DNA of 42,032 nucleotides from Thermoplasmatota archaeon (GTDB lineage: Archaea; Thermoplasmatota; E2; DHVEG-1), in contig JAUWWG010000004.1 of NCBI GenBank assembly GCA_030616985.1, positions 1 to 42,032 of the forward strand, in the 5' to 3' direction. Below, one piece after another: positions 4,046 through 33,716 of the stretch; position 1 is the stretch's first letter; each line of letters starts with the position of its first letter. Position numbers and translations under genes: made by a program. Below the pieces are notes generated by a model. That model did not search any database, was not told the origin of the DNA, and was given only the letters and a program-made list of their open reading frames with translations.

Positions 4046-5362
4046 TTGAAGAAGATAATTGGAATTTTTTTTTGTACATTATTAATTGGCACGATTATTC
4101 CAGTTGGAATAAATGCTATTGAAATCTATAATCCACTTGATGGTGGTTGGCTTGAAGAACGCGATGGAATAAAAATCCTTCATATTAGCGGTTCATCTTA
4201 TGAAATGGGATATCAATATGGCTTTCTATTAAAAGAAGAGATACTTGAAAACTCTCGGGCTGTTATCAACTTTTTGGAGCAGGTTGGATTTTTTTATAAC
4301 GATCTTCTTGATGTATGGAATGTGATGAAGGTTTATGTTCCACCAGAGATAATTAAGGAAATGAATGGTATGGCAAATGGTTCAGAAATTTCTTTTGAAC
4401 AGATTTCTGCTATAAACATGCTTGGGCCGATTTACCATGATATAACTTGCTGTGGCAGTGCTGCCTGGGGTCCAGCAACTTCTGATGGTAATCTATATCA
4501 CATGCGTAGCTATGATGCATCTCTTAACATAAGAGATCCAATTAGTGGTAAATATTTGCAAGAGAATCAGATTCTGATAGTCCGTAAACCAAATAATGGA
4601 TATGCATCATTGTATCCAGCAATTGCCTGTGATATTGGAATTGTGGGAGGAATAAATGAAAACAGCATAGGGATTGGATACAAATTATCTTGGAGTCCTG
4701 AAGATAAGACCTTTCATGGAACTCCTAAAGAGTTTAGAATGAAGATGATACTTGATCATGCGTCTACGGTAGAGGAGGCGATAGATATTGTCAACGCAAA
4801 CAAAACAAAAGGCGCAAATTTCATCATCTCCGACGGAAAAATTCCTATAGGATTTGTAGTTGAACAGAGTGCAAACTTATCATATGTAGGCACATGGAAT
4901 AATACTGTAGAATCAAATCGCCCCTTCTGGAGAATTGATCATGTTGTTAGAAGAACAAACTGCTTTATAGACCAAACATTGGCATCCGTTCAGAGACATC
5001 GTTATAGTCCAAGAAGTTTTTTGCTATGGCTATCTTGGAAGGTTGGTTTTTTGGAAGAAAATAATTTGTTCCCTCATTGGAAACACTATTGGATACTTAG
5101 TAAAGATATAGAAAAACATTGGGGAGATATGAATTTGAATAATACTATGTCCATGCTTCGAACCGTTTATAGCGGAAAAACAGATATTTCTTGGGCCATA
5201 CTGACAAAAATATTTGAATTTTTTAGGCCGATGCATCAATGGGTTGCGTGTCCTGAAACAGGCGATATAGTTATTTCTTTTGCAAGCGCAGATAGGGCCG
5301 CGCACGAAAATCCAGCGTATTACTTTAATATGTATGAATTGTTAAATTCTGAACCACCGTAA
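4046..5362 (+). CDS. secreted C45-like (acyl-CoA:6-APA acyltransferase-type) Ntn hydrolase
   Basis: A 438-residue protein with a cleavable-looking signal peptide (residues 1-24, ending VGINA), so it probably acts outside the membrane. The GSSYEMGYQYG segment (residues 49-59) and the ITCCGSAAWGPATSDGNLYH block around Cys135-Cys136 match the peptidase C45/linear amide C-N hydrolase family, whose nucleophile is a cysteine exposed by self-cleavage. One of the two adjacent cysteines should be that nucleophile. The natural substrate is an amide or acyl-peptide that cannot be specified. The start is a TTG preceded by GAGGCT. The stop codon overlaps repeat copy 3, and the gene is alone between copies 2 and 3. 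Confidence 0.75.
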   Translation: MKKIIGIFFCTLLIGTIIPVGINAIEIYNPLDGGWLEERDGIKILHISGSSYEMGYQYGFLLKEEILENSRAVINFLEQVGFFYNDLLDVWNVMKVYVPPEIIKEMNGMANGSEISFEQISAINMLGPIYHDITCCGSAAWGPATSDGNLYHMRSYDASLNIRDPISGKYLQENQILIVRKPNNGYASLYPAIACDIGIVGGINENSIGIGYKLSWSPEDKTFHGTPKEFRMKMILDHASTVEEAIDIVNANKTKGANFIISDGKIPIGFVVEQSANLSYVGTWNNTVESNRPFWRIDHVVRRTNCFIDQTLASVQRHRYSPRSFLLWLSWKVGFLEENNLFPHWKHYWILSKDIEKHWGDMNLNNTMSMLRTVYSGKTDISWAILTKIFEFFRPMHQWVACPETGDIVISFASADRAAHENPAYYFNMYELLNSEPP

Positions 5363-10867: not shown

Positions 10868-12241
10868 ATGAAAAACATTAATAAGCCTAAATTTAATAGC
10901 CTTTTGCCAAAAAATAACGAGGCAGGAGGCAATATACAAGAATGGAAAAGAGAAATGGTATTAGGCAGAAACAAAGTAACTATCTCAACCCCAAAAGGGG
11001 AGGATGGGGTGATAAGAAATAGTAAATTTCAAAATTATGATGTTGGCATTATCAAAAAGATAGACAGTAAAAAATTATTGTATCCGTTAACTGTAGATTT
11101 CAGCAGATATGAAACAAATGAAGAATTATACTGTGCGGTTAAGACATGGTGGATTGAAACAAAAAAGAAAGCGGAAAAAACAATAGATGTCAGGATTAGG
11201 ACAGCTCGACAATTTGAAAGACACCCGGTATTTCCAATCAATTGGTTGATATTTGATGAAAAACCAGAACAAGTGATAAATTTATTGATGTATCTTGAAA
11301 ATGTAGAGTACAAGGAAAAAGGAAAAGAGTTAGATGTAAATAATTACGGTGTAAATCACATTCATAACCTTTGGAAGACGATAAGAACATTTGCAGAAGC
11401 AAGAGGAGTAGATATTTCATATTGGCCGTATAAACCACCGGAAAGACCAGAGAACAAAGTAAAAATAATACCAATGCCCCCAATGGTAAACAAATTAATA
11501 CATCATAAATATGCAAAAGCTCAATATACGAATAAACTGATAAAAACAATACTGACCATAGGATTTCAATCAGGATTACGACCAGAGGAAATAATAATAT
11601 TAAAAGTGAAAAACATAGATTTTGAAAGTGGAACAGTTATAATAACAGAGCAAAAGAAAAGACATAGAAATCGACAGATAAGACTAGAAAAACCAGTGAT
11701 GTATAGTAGACAGCAAAACAGTTTGAAAAATTGGATATATATCTGGAGAAAAAAGAAGACAAATGATGATGGTTTTTTATTTTTAAAACCAAATGGAAAA
11801 CCATTTGAAACAGTAGCTGATCTCAGAGGCTTCCTAGCGGATTATGTAAAACCAGTATGGAATGATTTTTGTCCTAAGATAATGAGGGATTGGTACGCAA
11901 TAGCTAAGATGATACAGTATATGGAGAAAAATGGCTCTTGGCAGATAAGGAAGGTTAAAAATAAATTAGGACATAAGAAACAGGATACTACAGAGATATA
12001 TGTTGAATTTGCTGAAATGTACTATGAAAATTTTAAATTTGATTGGTTAAAATCTGTCCTTAAATTTCATCAGAATAGTAAACGAATGAAAAAATTGATG
12101 AAAGAGGATTACAGGTCGAGCCAAGAAAATTTAAGCAAACGAAAAAAATGGGCTGGCTTAATCAAATTCCCTTCTGTTGGAATTAATGCTCCCGACGGGA
12201 TTCGAACCCGTGTAGCCAGCTCGAAAGGCTGGAATGATTGA
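10868..12241 (+). CDS. tyrosine integrase whose 3' end overlaps tRNA-Glu
   Basis: 457 residues. A SAM-like N-terminal region precedes the catalytic domain: Arg238 in SGLRPEE, a beta-hairpin lysine in EQKKRHR, box II KIMRDWYA with Arg340 (and lysine at the usual His position), LGH with His369, and the nucleophile Tyr378 in TTEIY. It catalyses integration and excision of the element at tRNA-Glu. Residues 440-444 (NAPDG) are encoded by the att core, and the last 13 residues (IRTRVASSKGWND) are antisense tRNA-Glu, i.e. host-derived. In the excised circle the same frame would instead continue into VHKLLTLLKK... from the left end. The gene stays intact on integration, unlike split SSV-type integrases. 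Confidence 0.88.
   Translation: MKNINKPKFNSLLPKNNEAGGNIQEWKREMVLGRNKVTISTPKGEDGVIRNSKFQNYDVGIIKKIDSKKLLYPLTVDFSRYETNEELYCAVKTWWIETKKKAEKTIDVRIRTARQFERHPVFPINWLIFDEKPEQVINLLMYLENVEYKEKGKELDVNNYGVNHIHNLWKTIRTFAEARGVDISYWPYKPPERPENKVKIIPMPPMVNKLIHHKYAKAQYTNKLIKTILTIGFQSGLRPEEIIILKVKNIDFESGTVIITEQKKRHRNRQIRLEKPVMYSRQQNSLKNWIYIWRKKKTNDDGFLFLKPNGKPFETVADLRGFLADYVKPVWNDFCPKIMRDWYAIAKMIQYMEKNGSWQIRKVKNKLGHKKQDTTEIYVEFAEMYYENFKFDWLKSVLKFHQNSKRMKKLMKEDYRSSQENLSKRKKWAGLIKFPSVGINAPDGIRTRVASSKGWND
12185..12199. other. attR core at the tRNA-Glu 3' end
   Basis: AATGCTCCCGACGGG, direct repeat partner of 6255-6269. It covers the discriminator, the acceptor 3' strand and the first bases of the T-stem of tRNA-Glu. 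Confidence 0.8.
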
Positions 12242-12261
12242 CCGGACTACACCACGGGAGC
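12187..12261 (-). tRNA. tRNA-Glu (UUC)
   Basis: Reverse complement folds as a cloverleaf: acceptor GCTCCCG/CGGGAGC (7 bp), T8, anticodon stem CCAGC/GCTGG with loop CTTTCGA (anticodon TTC), T-arm ACGGG-TTCGAAT-CCCGT, discriminator A. No encoded CCA. It lies nine bases downstream of tRNA-Gln and is the integration target; the tRNA stays intact because the element carries the 3' end. Confidence 0.95.
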
Positions 12262-12269
12262 AAATTGAG

Positions 12270-12341
12270 CAGCCCTGTCCAGATTCGAACTGGAGTCGCT
12301 GGCTCCAAAGGCCAGCATGTTAACCACTACACCACAGGGCC
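12270..12341 (-). tRNA. tRNA-Gln (UUG)
   Basis: Reverse complement: acceptor GGCCCTG/CAGGGCT with a G-U first pair, T8, anticodon stem CTGGC/GCCAG around loop CTTTGGA (anticodon TTG), T-arm TCCAG-TTCGAAT-CTGGA. It is the first gene of a Gln-Glu tRNA pair transcribed on the minus strand. Confidence 0.93.
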
Positions 12342-28490: not shown

Positions 28491-31213
28491 TTTATCATAT
28501 CTCCTGGTACTTCTATATAAAAATCATCAAATTGTAAAACACCTTTATCCTTTTTCCCTTTGACTTTTGTCTCTTTTTTAACTTGAATATAACCATTCTT
28601 TATTAAAGGTTCATCTGGAGTTTTTTTATCGACAATCGATATCTCTGACCATCTGACATCTCCATGCCCTTCGATAGTTTTTATTAGTTCGTCTTGATGT
28701 TCCCCAATCCATTTGGTAAGTTTCCCACTTTCTTTTTTGAACAGTGGCCCTATTTTAGAATGAACAGGTTTAACCGAAGTAATTTTTTCTTCGACATCTG
28801 GCTTTCCAACAATAAATTCGTGATCATCAGGATAGTTTAATGTTGATTTAATTATTGATCCACTGGGTTTTATCTTGGAAATAATGCTTTTTGTAGAATA
28901 GGTTGCAGAGGACTGCATAGAAGCATTTAATGCCATACCCTGAGCGCTTTTCCATGAGCGCACCCAAGAAATGTAGTCTTTAACATATTCTCCAGCTTTT
29001 TCAGCCTCGTTATCGATGAGTATCATTTCAGGCCATGGTGAAACATGTACACTCGTACAACCCTCAAATTTTTTATAACATTGGTGATATATTTCTTCTG
29101 TAATATGTGGGAAAAATGGTGCAAATAATTTTAGAATACCCAAGCCCAGTGTGTATATCGTGTAGCTAATGCTTTCAACGTTTTCGTTTTTGTATATGGA
29201 TGATTTTGCCATTTCGATATAGTGATCTGCAAGTTCATGCCACAGGAAGTATTCAATTTCTTTCATTGCCGGGGAGTAATCAAATACATCCATTAGTTCC
29301 GTACATTTCTTTACTAGCTTGCTATATTTTGTTAGTATCCATCTGTCAATATCGATTAGCTCTGGTTTTTCTGGTTTAGCATCATTTTTGATTATGTTTG
29401 AAATGAATTTCTCAACATTCCATAGTTTACGAAGAAGCCTTGTTCCTCTTACAACATCCTTGTTTCTAAACGCGTTGTCTTCACCTAAAGCACAGCTTGC
29501 CGCATAGCATCGGAATGCATCAGTGCCGTATTCATCTATCAATTTTAGCGGGTCAATTACATTCCCAAGACTGGCATGCATGGGTGTCCCATCTTCAGAT
29601 AATATGAATCCCCCCATCATGATGTTTTCAAAGGGCTTCTCATCTGTCAAAAGATTGCACCTTAGAATTGTATAAAATGCCCATGTTCTAATTATATCAT
29701 GTGCCTGTGGCCTGAGAGACATTGGATACAGTTTTTTGAATTTCTCATCATCTCTATGCCAAAATGTGTTGTAGAGGGGGGATATTGACGAGTCCATCCA
29801 TGTGTCAAAGACATCTTCGCAGCCTTTGAGATTTCCTCCGCATTTTGGACATGTTTCTACTGGTGGTTTATCAATCGTGGGATCAATATAACAATCTTTG
29901 GATCTAGCAAGTACAACATGCTTACATTTTTCACATTCCCATAGAGGTATTGGTGTTGCAAAATATCTTTGACGGCTGATAACCCAGTCCCACTCAAGGG
30001 ATTCTACCCAGTCTATGAGTCGTATTTTCATGAACTCTGGGCACCATTTCATCTCATCACTGGAATTTAATACCATTTCTTTGAATGGTACAGTCTTTAA
30101 GAACCATTGTTCTGCATTGATAAATTCGACAGGGGTTTTGCAGCGCCAACAGACGCCCACATTCTGTTCCAGTGGACTTTGTGCAATAAGCAGGTCGTTT
30201 TTTTGTAAATCCTCAATTACATCCCTGCGTGCATCTTCAATTTTCATCCCCTTGTATTTGCCGCAGATATCCGTCATGCAGCCTTCTTCGTCAATACTCA
30301 TCTCAATGGGTAGTTTATACTTAAAAACCCAATTTAGATCCTCTTTGTCACCAACGGTACATATCATAACAATACCAGATCCAAACTCAGGATCTACAAC
30401 ATCATCTTCAACAATCTTTACCTCTTTGTTGAATAAGGGCACCTTTAACATTTGATCTGAAAGCCAAGGTGCACGTTCATCTTTTGGATGGACTGCAACG
30501 ATCTGACATGATGGAAGCATCTCTGGCCGCGTAGTTGCAATCTCAACGTACATTCCCTTATCATCTTTTCCAATTCCATAATAATTCAAAAGCTGCTCAG
30601 ATTGTTCTTTTACAAAATAGAATTTTATTGTGTTAAGTTTCGTTGTTCTATCAGCATATGTCACCTCTGCATCTGCCATGGCAGTCATGCAACGTGGGCA
30701 CCAGTTCACTGGAAATTTACCTTTGTAAATGTGGCCTTTATCATATAGCTCAATGAAGGATATCTGCGTAAGTCTCCTATAGTACTCCGCATTAGTCTGA
30801 TAATATATCGATGGATCCATACTTTCTCCCAGTATGATAAACTGGTCAGTCATGGTTTTGATATTTTTCTCAGCAAACTCAGAACAAAGTTTTGTGAATT
30901 CATGCCTATCTATATCTTTACGAGTTATATTCAGCCGTCTTTCGACACGTTCCTCAATCGGTATTCCATTCACATCGAAACATAACGGAAAAAACACATT
31001 GAAACCACACATACGTTTGTATCTTGCAGCAAAATCTATGTGCGTGTAATGAACCGCATGTCCTGCATGGAGTGGGCCAGATGCATAACGCGGTGGGACA
31101 TCTATACTATACGGCTTTTTATTGCTATCAAAATCAAAGTGATGGATTTTCATTTCCTGCCATTTTTTCTGCCATTTTTTCTCAATGGATTTCTGATCAT
31201 ATGATGTTGACAT
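28487..31213 (-). CDS. valS: valyl-tRNA synthetase (atypical KMSKS)
   Basis: 908 residues, archaeal ValRS. The N-terminal PPRYASGPLHAGHAVHYTHI holds the HIGH variant HAGH. FPVNWCPRCMTAMADAEV, an editing (CP1) domain with IATTRPEMLPSCQIVAVHP, SRQRYFATPIPLWECEKC with a zinc knuckle, DTWMDSSISPLYNT and an anticodon-binding C-terminus follow in order. The class I KMSKS signature reads PMHASLGNVIDP, so both lysines are missing. A TATA-like ACATATATATCT lies upstream, with GGAG before the ATG. Its stop overlaps the start of a 35-residue membrane miniprotein. Confidence 0.93.
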   Translation of the reverse strand: MSTSYDQKSIEKKWQKKWQEMKIHHFDFDSNKKPYSIDVPPRYASGPLHAGHAVHYTHIDFAARYKRMCGFNVFFPLCFDVNGIPIEERVERRLNITRKDIDRHEFTKLCSEFAEKNIKTMTDQFIILGESMDPSIYYQTNAEYYRRLTQISFIELYDKGHIYKGKFPVNWCPRCMTAMADAEVTYADRTTKLNTIKFYFVKEQSEQLLNYYGIGKDDKGMYVEIATTRPEMLPSCQIVAVHPKDERAPWLSDQMLKVPLFNKEVKIVEDDVVDPEFGSGIVMICTVGDKEDLNWVFKYKLPIEMSIDEEGCMTDICGKYKGMKIEDARRDVIEDLQKNDLLIAQSPLEQNVGVCWRCKTPVEFINAEQWFLKTVPFKEMVLNSSDEMKWCPEFMKIRLIDWVESLEWDWVISRQRYFATPIPLWECEKCKHVVLARSKDCYIDPTIDKPPVETCPKCGGNLKGCEDVFDTWMDSSISPLYNTFWHRDDEKFKKLYPMSLRPQAHDIIRTWAFYTILRCNLLTDEKPFENIMMGGFILSEDGTPMHASLGNVIDPLKLIDEYGTDAFRCYAASCALGEDNAFRNKDVVRGTRLLRKLWNVEKFISNIIKNDAKPEKPELIDIDRWILTKYSKLVKKCTELMDVFDYSPAMKEIEYFLWHELADHYIEMAKSSIYKNENVESISYTIYTLGLGILKLFAPFFPHITEEIYHQCYKKFEGCTSVHVSPWPEMILIDNEAEKAGEYVKDYISWVRSWKSAQGMALNASMQSSATYSTKSIISKIKPSGSIIKSTLNYPDDHEFIVGKPDVEEKITSVKPVHSKIGPLFKKESGKLTKWIGEHQDELIKTIEGHGDVRWSEISIVDKKTPDEPLIKNGYIQVKKETKVKGKKDKGVLQFDDFYIEVPGDMIK

Positions 31214-31438
31214 TCTATTTTCTCCACTAGATATATATGTGAATTAGTAGAGGTCAAAGAATTTTTACTTATAAAAGCCACTCACCACAGAACCTGCTTT
31301 ATGTTTGTTCACGGGCCCAAGCTCCATTTTGATTATTTGTGTCTTTTATATCTCTACTGTCGCTATATCTACGATAATGCCACTTGCAATTATCAAGATA
31401 CATAAAACCTTTATGCATATGTTTTGCCTTGTGTAATT

Positions 31439-31479
31439 ATTTTTCTCCCCCAGATTTACAAGTTCATTGCTGTTTTTTC
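31439..31479. repeat. 41-nt direct repeat, copy A
   Basis: Starts ATTTTTCTCCCCCAGATTTA and is identical over 41 bases to copy B at 31705-31745. On the minus strand it follows the 48-residue ORF. Confidence 0.9.
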
Positions 31480-31497
31480 AAGAGATGGCCATTCTAA

Positions 31498-31644
31498 CTA
31501 CATAATCAGGTTTTTTTTCCATATGACCATAATAAAATAAAAAGCAAACGTAGTTGGAAATGCAATATTGAAGGCAAAACTTACAAAAATCAATAAAAAG
31601 CAAATTACAGGTTTCAATATTAGTATTGTATCTTTAACTTGCAT
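31498..31644 (-). CDS. 48-residue membrane microprotein
   Basis: Not in the ORF track. An ATG at 31644 is preceded by GGGGGAGAGAAAATT, a strong ribosome binding site with eight-base spacing, and by a TATA-like AAATTTATACAA ~30 bases further up. The product starts MQVKDTILIL and contains two hydrophobic segments with a short polar link (SFAFNIAFPTTFAF), ending WKKNLIM. I recognise no family. Confidence 0.55.
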   Translation of the reverse strand: MQVKDTILILKPVICFLLIFVSFAFNIAFPTTFAFYFIMVIWKKNLIM

Positions 31645-31704
31645 AATTTTCTCTCCCCCTGGTTGATACTTTGTATAAATTTATTTAATTGTAATGTCCT
31701 AGTG

Positions 31705-31745
31705 ATTTTTCTCCCCCAGATTTACAAGTTCATTGCTGTTTTTTC
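31705..31745. repeat. 41-nt direct repeat, copy B
   Basis: Exact copy of 31439-31479. On the minus strand it includes the last codons and stop of the 32-residue ORF and reads AACTTGTAAATCTGGGGGAG after it. Confidence 0.9.
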
Positions 31746-31828
31746 TTTTTTTCTTTTTTGAACTTAAGCATTCTCTCATGCATTTCCCTTACTCTCTTTT
31801 CTACATGATTTTGATAAATATTTGCCAT
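31730..31828 (-). CDS. 32-residue basic microprotein
   Basis: Not in the ORF track. ATG at 31828 with GGGGAGG four bases upstream, the best ribosome binding site in this region. The peptide MANIYQNHVEKRVREMHERM continues into a lysine-rich tail ending in QQ. Predicted one helix with a polybasic end, suggesting nucleic acid or ribosome contact (inference). Its 3' end lies in repeat copy B. Confidence 0.45.
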   Translation of the reverse strand: MANIYQNHVEKRVREMHERMLKFKKEKKKKQQ

Positions 31829-31946
31829 TTTACCTCCCCAGATCTGATTTAAAAACAGTACCTTTTATTAATATTTTGTTCGCAGGTGAATATGCAGGTA
31901 GATCCCGTAAAATATACAACTGTGTGACATCCAGTTCCTTAAAATA

Positions 31947-32996
31947 TCAGTCTTTGCTTGATGCGGTGGGCTTAGGTTCTTCTAGTGCCATCTTTCTAAA
32001 TTCTTTCACTTCATCAACAGAGGGTAAAACAGGTTTGATATGTTTCCTCTTCATCTTTTTATTATATTCCTCTATACTAATTTCTTCTAGTATTTTTCTG
32101 CCTTTTTCCCTAAGTTGATCCATAGAACCATTCACGGTGTCAACTGTACTCCGTAGCACTATGAAAAGAGGCGACATAAACTGGCGGAATAGCAGTGGAA
32201 ACCCTTCGAATCTGATATCCATACTTTTATCAACCCTCACTCTCCACCCGGGCTCCGCCCCTAACTCTGATATAGCAACGCCCATTCCAACGCTAAGTTC
32301 GTCTGAAAAAGTTGGATCCCCATTTATCCACTTGCCGTTCACTTTCAGTTCTGCCTCACCATGCATGGCATCAAGGAACCCTAAAGATTGGAAGGTTTCT
32401 CTCAATATCGGATCTGGAGCAACCATAACATCATACATCTCTTGAGTTGGAGCTAACCCGTACAACCTATAACGTGCAGGAATACCACCAGCTCTTGCTA
32501 TAGCTGCCAAAAGCGATAGCTGATCAAGACATACTCCACCTTTCGTCTTGAACGTTTGGAGAGCCCCCACAATGGGCTTAAAGATTAGATATTTATTAGT
32601 TTTAACCCACTTAAAAGCAGCTTGAGCAAATTCCTCATCTGACTTACTTTCTGCCCTTAATTGTTCTGCAAGAGCACGTATTTCAGGGGCATCTGATTCG
32701 CAGAAAAGTGTTGGCCTTAGGTATTTTTTGTTTTCATGCTTCAATTGACCTAGATTGTCAAGAATTTTTTTGTTTAGAAGCTTGGTAGAATCATATTGAC
32801 TCTCATCAGCAATATGTGCCCATGGTACTCGATGATTTCTCAGTCTTAATTTATATGAAGGTATATTTTGGATTATAGATTCAGGATGGTTTGCAACAAT
32901 AAATGATAATGGACCTATCGTCTTCAAAAAATTTTTCAAAAGTGGTCTTGGTATTAACAATCCCTTATCTATCCCCTCACTAATTTTTCTAAACAT
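31947..32996 (-). CDS. transglutaminase-like cysteine protease-fold protein
   Basis: About 349 residues from the ATG at 32996, or 381 from the TTG of the track at 33092. A transglutaminase-core triad is visible: Cys in GGVCLDQLSLLAAIARAGGIPARY, His in AMHGEAELKVNGKW and Asp in NGDPTF. The N-terminal third and the basic C-terminus are unassigned, and there is no signal peptide. The preferred start is supported by GGTGAT just before ATG and by a TATA box (ATTTATATATG, about 33068-33080) that lies inside the longer ORF. The palindrome at 33101-33118 is upstream of that TATA. A role in peptide or amide hydrolysis is inferred. Confidence 0.75.
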   Translation of the reverse strand: MFRKISEGIDKGLLIPRPLLKNFLKTIGPLSFIVANHPESIIQNIPSYKLRLRNHRVPWAHIADESQYDSTKLLNKKILDNLGQLKHENKKYLRPTLFCESDAPEIRALAEQLRAESKSDEEFAQAAFKWVKTNKYLIFKPIVGALQTFKTKGGVCLDQLSLLAAIARAGGIPARYRLYGLAPTQEMYDVMVAPDPILRETFQSLGFLDAMHGEAELKVNGKWINGDPTFSDELSVGMGVAISELGAEPGWRVRVDKSMDIRFEGFPLLFRQFMSPLFIVLRSTVDTVNGSMDQLREKGRKILEEISIEEYNKKMKRKHIKPVLPSVDEVKEFRKMALEEPKPTASSKD

Positions 32997-33100
32997 CTTA
33001 TCACCGTATTTCGCTCTAAATTTATCAAACTTTTTTAATATTAATATAAAATACTTACGTTTTACAACATATATAAATGTTTTCACATCCAAAATTTTTA

Positions 33101-33118
33101 TTGCAACATTTGTTACAA
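33101..33118. promoter_or_regulatory. candidate palindromic operator, site 3
   Basis: TTGCAAC-ATTT-GTTACAA, the most symmetric of three related sites (others at 2550 and 3972). It lies ~20 bases upstream of the TATA box of the transglutaminase-like gene. Confidence 0.45.
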
Positions 33119-33186
33119 TCTATTGTTGAGGTTCCTGTAGCATTAACCAATGTTTCTTAAATCGAAATAGAACAATACAATGGGAA

Positions 33187-33204
33187 AAGAAACACGAGTT
33201 TCTT
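33187..33204 (-). terminator. 7-bp hairpin after the HTH regulator
   Basis: AAGAAAC-ACGA-GTTTCTT, a perfect stem with a four-base loop between the end of the regulator gene at 33336 and the next promoter. No long T-run follows on the minus strand, so terminator function is uncertain. Confidence 0.3.
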
Positions 33205-33335
33205 AATTCAAAGAATTGAGTGGAATAATTGCAATTTTCCTTATCCAAAATCAAAATTAGTTCAAATTAGATTGGGAACTATTCAGAATAATAGCAAATG
33301 TGAGTTTTAAAGAAGAACAACAGATCCCATCTGTT

Positions 33336-33716
33336 TTATCTATCACCTAAAAGGATTTTAAGTTCTGTTATGTCTCTTTTGACCGCTTCTATTTCTTGCA
33401 GTTTTTCTTTTTCAAAACTTCCAATTATATTGTCTAAGGGCAACGTAAGTTTATAGATATAGATTGGTCTTCCTTTCCCTTCCTTTTTTAGATCTCTCTT
33501 ATCTATCCACCCTTTTTTCTTCAGCTCTTGCATTGCCACACTTACCTCTGGTTGCCTTAGATTTGCACCTTGCTCAACCTCTACAGAGCGGCATTCATCA
33601 ACCTGTGAGATATATGTAAGGGTTTTAGCTAGGTTCTTTGGCATTCCAAGCTCTGTAAATATATGTACTATCTTCCCATCTTGCTGAGTTAATTTATAAG
33701 GTGTATTTTCTTTCAT
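33336..33716 (-). CDS. winged-helix transcriptional regulator, paralog 1
   Basis: 126 residues. A winged helix-turn-helix fills the middle: AKTLTYISQVDECRSVEVEQ, then the recognition-helix region ANLRQPEVSVAMQELKKKGWI and the wing KKEGKGRPIYIYKL. The C-terminal ~35 residues form a charged helix, probably for dimerisation. It is strongly related to the gene at 37085. These TrmB/ArsR-like archaeal regulators bind as dimers; the target is unknown. A TATA-like AAATATAAAAAC lies ~30 bases upstream of the ATG, suggesting a leaderless transcript. Confidence 0.82.
   Translation of the reverse strand: MKENTPYKLTQQDGKIVHIFTELGMPKNLAKTLTYISQVDECRSVEVEQGANLRQPEVSVAMQELKKKGWIDKRDLKKEGKGRPIYIYKLTLPLDNIIGSFEKEKLQEIEAVKRDITELKILLGDR

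Follow-up and report, generated by a model that had tools for sequence, protein, structure and literature searches.

A candidate gene cassette between duplicated 41-nt segments behind a conserved microprotein gene of a Thermoplasmatota archaeon

A 42,032-nucleotide stretch of DNA (the window) from an uncultured sediment archaeon of the Thermoplasmatota carries a 225-nt insert behind a conserved microprotein gene. We favor, with moderate confidence, a model in which this insert is a gene cassette bounded by a dispersed spacer that we call M2. The evidence comprises the presence of the insert here and its absence from a same-genus relative, the duplication of a 41-nt boundary around it, a match to M2 at one of its junctions, and M2-bounded gene exchange at other loci; for the insert itself, it comes from one relative and one junction. 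The source genome (G000) spans 2.05 Mb and is 89% complete, and the relative (G001) is the sole one with an orthologous site. Both are fragmented metagenome assemblies in which many copies of the elements described here lie at contig ends, copy counts in G000 come from searches, and the other genomes are, with few exceptions, metagenome assemblies as well.

Read along the minus strand, the locus consists of a promoter, ORF1, the first 41-nt copy (31745-31705), the 225-nt segment with ORF2, the second 41-nt copy (31479-31439), the ORF3 frame and a valyl-tRNA synthetase gene (31213-28487; name read from sequence). ORF3 is a putative 39-aa frame (31299-31418, minus strand) that is open in G001 too, where it differs by three nonsynonymous and two synonymous changes. 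Upstream of ORF1 lies a transglutaminase-like gene (31947-33092; named by eye). The interval between this gene and a gene for a 126-aa protein differs between the two genomes: it spans only about 240 nt in the window (33092-33336), whereas in G001:C63 (L089:5273-5374) it houses one more copy of the micro-ORF together with a gene of 896 aa.

ORF1 (31730-31828, minus strand) is predicted to encode a 32-aa basic microprotein, MANIYQNHVEKRVREMHERMLKFKKEKKKKQQ. Its strong ribosome site, GGGGAGG at 31833-31839, was recognized in a first-pass annotation of this DNA and is kept in G001. Both the site and the frame stand, and a single synonymous change is all that separates ORF1 from its G001 orthologue. 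The family to which it belongs has eight copies in G000 and four in G001, ORF1 itself included in both counts. Among 52 genomes searched from the order, 16 carry members (10 genera, up to 12 copies per genome), all confined to one Thermoplasmatota taxonomic family. A contig that carries the label Heimdallarchaeota, and is probably mis-binned, also has a member. The proteins are about 33 residues long and share an HxxxRxxExxER helix; in an alignment of 22 members, M1, H8, E18 and R19 are invariant and R12 and E15 nearly so. For 66 pairs of 33-aa copies, pN/pS is 0.24 (pS 0.475, pN 0.115), and the DNA shared by pairs of micro-ORF copies mostly runs from about position -30 to the stop codon. These comparisons indicate that ORF1 is a microprotein gene under selection; its family, which is multicopy, is previously undescribed.

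No significant match to Pfam, NCBIfam or the PDB was obtained for ORF1 and 21 of its relatives. An AlphaFold model predicts one helix spanning residues 2-31 (pLDDT 90.8). The product is thus probably a single basic helix, and its shape and charge, the sole guides to function used here, weakly suggest that it binds RNA, the ribosome or a partner protein. We also considered a viral or a plasmid origin and set both aside, as searches of IMG/VR turned up neither M2 nor a relative of either ORF, and no ORF1 relatives were present among plasmids.

The promoter of ORF1 includes a conserved upstream element, ACCTGCATATTCACCTGCGAA (31879-31899, minus strand), with two ACCTGC repeats 12 bp apart. A predicted TATA-box-like sequence, ATATTAATA (31866-31874, minus strand), lies between this element and ORF1. 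Four genomes from two genera have the element before ORF1-type genes, at equal distance each time, and in genus g5 the promoter-ORF1 unit is found at a different chromosomal place, beside a gene reading as ribosomal protein L11. The other family copies that we scanned lack it upstream. Among 25 genomes searched, the element was present in 14 and gave 19 further matches, against none for a reversed control pattern. Several of these stand ahead of genes that by eye look archaellin- or pilin-like, and others ahead of unrelated sequence. EarA-type elements have been described before archaellin genes (PMC5512572), and the element examined here is likewise a short repeated sequence immediately upstream of the BRE/TATA that is found before archaellin-like genes. 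It differs in having two ACCTGC repeats and in also preceding a microprotein gene. ORF1 would be made from its own regulated promoter, and the element links one member of the microprotein family to surface-appendage genes. In L114, L117 and L113 (G001:C23, G000:C29 and G005:C92), the ACCTGC element also lies upstream of a conserved segment about 130 nt long (AATCTGGGCTGG...CCCAGATT), which is apparently non-coding and possibly an unknown small RNA.

The two 41-nt copies (31705-31745 and 31439-31479, minus strand) lie 266 nt apart, start to start, and are identical over 41 nt, or over 46 nt with two mismatches. A search that the first-pass annotation had proposed, run across all 2.05 Mb with as many as three mismatches allowed, places this unit at only two sites, both in the window. 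The repeat had been described as trailing each ORF. This holds for ORF2, whose stop codon lies 18 nt before the downstream copy, but the upstream copy includes the last codons of ORF1 (KKQQ-stop). The unit is made up of the closing codons of ORF1 followed by a spacer that bears a Shine-Dalgarno site. This GGGGGAG (31711-31717 and 31445-31451) is an orphan in both copies, as first noticed, with no start codon at a usable distance. A known structured RNA was considered for positions 31000-32200 and rejected, since no Rfam family was found at the gathering or a relaxed threshold and the only match was an insignificant one to an animal microRNA. The role in RNA 3' processing that the first-pass annotation had suggested finds no support in this search.

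Between the copies, the 225-nt segment (31480-31704, minus strand) carries putative ORF2 (31498-31644, minus strand), a 48-aa hydrophobic frame with a ribosome site GGGGGAG at 31653-31659 and a predicted TATA-like sequence TTTATACA at 31672-31679 (minus strand). The length and ribosome site first reported for ORF2 are borne out. The annotation would have counted a lack of conservation of both frames in close relatives as a refutation; ORF1 is conserved, whereas no credible relative of ORF2 was found in searches that included IMG/VR. The segment as a whole is unique within G000 and had no convincing match in 26 genomes.

In G001 the flanks are about 95% identical to the window on both sides, but the alignment jumps from copy to copy, leaving one 41-nt unit and neither the 225 nt nor ORF2. 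The single G001 unit differs from both window copies at 4 of 41 positions. Therefore, 225 nt and one copy were either gained here or lost there. An earlier proposal of a micro-operon expanded by duplication does not fit: ORF1 and ORF2 are unrelated to each other, so no gene was duplicated, and only the 41-nt boundary is doubled, around an unrelated segment that the nearest relative lacks. Judged by the G001 locus, ORF2 is not an old partner of ORF1, and it may be non-coding.

Because only one relative has an orthologous site, loss in G001 has to be weighed. The two-copy state might be ancestral, with ORF2 removed from G001 by recombination between the 41-nt repeats, a process that would delete exactly the interval missing there. 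However, the window copies are identical whereas the G001 copy carries four differences, which favors a recent event in the lineage of G000. Copies of long standing would be expected to differ by now unless they had been homogenized, and we regard an ancestral two-copy state as quite unlikely.

M2 is a dispersed spacer between short same-strand ORFs, with the consensus ATAACCATCTCTTGAAAAGGCGGTT(A)TGGRATTGTAGATTTGARGG, and arrays of such ORFs interspersed with M2 were found. With our model, G000 yields 19 sites and G001 yields 10; matches elsewhere are weaker and often cover the right half only. The right half, TTGTAGATTTGARGG, precedes ORFs including the first of an array, whereas the left half occurs between ORFs and not before first ones. 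At the junction of the insert and the downstream copy, an M2-type spacer (CATCTCTTG + AAAAAACAGCAATGAACTTGTAAATCTGGGGGAG; 31437-31497, minus strand) matches the model with 26.8 bits (E 6.6e-6), the junction having been excluded from model building. The window insert, too, ends on its right-hand side with a (TT)GAAAA boundary. The right half of the 41-nt spacer resembles a translation leader, and the whole would be a boundary between exchanged gene units.

A simpler account holds that template switching or slippage doubled 41 nt around filler DNA, that the likeness to M2 is incidental and that ORF2 is no gene. One recent event of this kind is expected to leave identical copies, the insert has no relative anywhere searched, and the junction, a weak M2, departs from the consensus. 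Yet the junction reaches 21.3 bits in profile scoring, compared with 4.1 for the upstream copy and 10.0 for the best of 50 simulated windows. Filler DNA also accounts poorly for a TATA-like box and a strong, properly spaced ribosome site before ORF2, and for the M2-bounded exchanges at other loci. We therefore judge it unlikely.

A clean exchange of this kind separates one locus of G000 from its counterpart in G001. In G000:C61, a leader is followed by a micro-ORF, M2 and a methyltransferase gene, whereas in G001:C73 the place between the same leader and the same methyltransferase gene (about 95% identity) is taken by a gene for an HNH nuclease and one more ORF. Breakpoints map to the leader motif on one side and, on the other, to the TTGAAAAG part of M2. 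A 130-aa ORF has differing upstream neighbors, a 64-aa ORF has differing downstream neighbors, and leaders of two types precede differing first ORFs. At these loci the two species differ in their ORFs, with M2 at the breakpoints. The cargo of the arrays includes HNH nucleases and a methyltransferase.

Several further features of the leaders were recorded. The first part of leader A (up to about 127 nt) occurs alone at L092:3005-3132 and in G000 C138, C39 and C27 and G001 C19, where it is a dispersed promoter module; one such part precedes a secreted-protein-like gene. A zinc-finger protein of the HNH-associated type (KQCxxCKxFKxLDEFYKF) is encoded upstream of leader A at L086:4208-4651, L092:2746-2994 and L090:9793-10017. 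The leader holds a putative M-x-L-stop mini-ORF. A reading of the leader as the peptide EFVELK was discarded, since by eye the copies do not preserve it. A conserved 3' segment (ACAATAAACCCAACAGGGATTG...CTAACAGGAGTTCTTTGTTGATTAATA) follows some arrays, in L090 (reverse strand 4248-4331), L092 and L124.

M2 could instead be a regulatory or translational leader of accessory genes, swapped by ordinary homologous recombination. This possibility is compatible with a cassette origin of the insert and concerns its mechanism, and we consider it substantial, if somewhat short of an even chance. The placement of TTGTAGATTTGARGG before ORFs, first ones included, agrees with it, as do the sharing of promoter modules and the lack of a folded attC-like structure. 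Less easily accommodated are the left half, with its restriction to positions between ORFs, and exchange at several loci between two species through only about 30-40 nt of shared sequence.

The arrays recall integrons and CALINs in several respects. They contain tandem short same-strand ORFs with a conserved element between them, the same ORF can have different neighbors, units are exchanged at the site between genomes, and a common leader lies ahead of the first ORF. M2 also has AAC and GTT ends. A true integron cassette array, equipped with its integrase and attC sites, is nevertheless very improbable. At about 40 nt, with a core of about 23 nt, the M2 spacer is far shorter than attC, and it carries a translation leader. 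Its ends read GTTTGGG/GTTATGR and not GTTRRRY, and it lacks the folded imperfect palindrome with RYYYAAC/GTTRRRY boxes that characterizes attC. The AACC/GGTT ends look palindromic, and we examined them as a possible hairpin; no covarying pairing or compensatory changes were found, and folding was no better than that of shuffled sequences. Archaeal integrons have been reported (Ghaly 2022, PMC9668308) in a paper whose main text does not mention Thermoplasmatota, and our literature search found no relevant paper joining integrons or cassettes with this phylum. The M2 arrays work like an integron in outline but do not qualify as one.

The genome contains 22 tyrosine recombinase matches, which is high for 2 Mb. 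Ten of the 22 were scanned in this 89% complete genome, and the best reached 81.8 bits with the integron integrase model TIGR02249, far below its cut-off of 265. Each of the ten resembles Xer-type models more closely than TIGR02249, and every score lies below the cut-off. One tyrosine recombinase gene (457 aa) lies within the window at 10868-12241 and ends at tRNA-Glu and tRNA-Gln genes (12186-12341). This arrangement is typical of integrated elements.

The duplicated boundary also resembles a transposon target-site duplication, in which the sequence repeated on either side of an insert occurs once where the insert is missing. The window insert lies between perfect direct repeats that are single in G001, but 41 nt is unusually long for such a duplication and the insert has no transposase. 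Nor does it look like an insertion sequence or MITE, as no inverted repeat pairs its ends and it has no further copies in the genome.

In the cassette model that we prefer, a 225-nt unit composed of a TATA-like box, a ribosome site, ORF2 and the left half of M2 would have been inserted at an M2-like spacer overlapping the end of ORF1. Joining would have duplicated the 41-nt boundary onto both sides, probably by strand switching or recombination at two short sequences in common, GAAAA and GGGAGAAAAAT. The center of the resulting spacer (AACAGCAATG) derives from ORF1 and not from the M2 consensus, which argues that the joining was not a clean site-specific exchange. The spacer would give a translation leader (TTGTAGATTTGARGG and a Shine-Dalgarno site) to any ORF that follows, and ORF2 would be translated. 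The start codon is missing after the spacer here probably because the next cassette decayed, and the orphan ribosome site would be a relic of it.

More speculatively, and with less than even confidence, M2 might belong to a dedicated Thermoplasmatota cassette system that uses a new recombinase or none, in which it serves as exchange site and ready-made translation leader and the HxxxRxxExxER microprotein is a recurrent cassette. The present analysis adds a new, selected, multicopy microprotein family. If the cassette model is correct, archaea without recognizable integrons would still build arrays of swappable small genes, and one spacer would serve both as an exchange boundary and as a translation leader.
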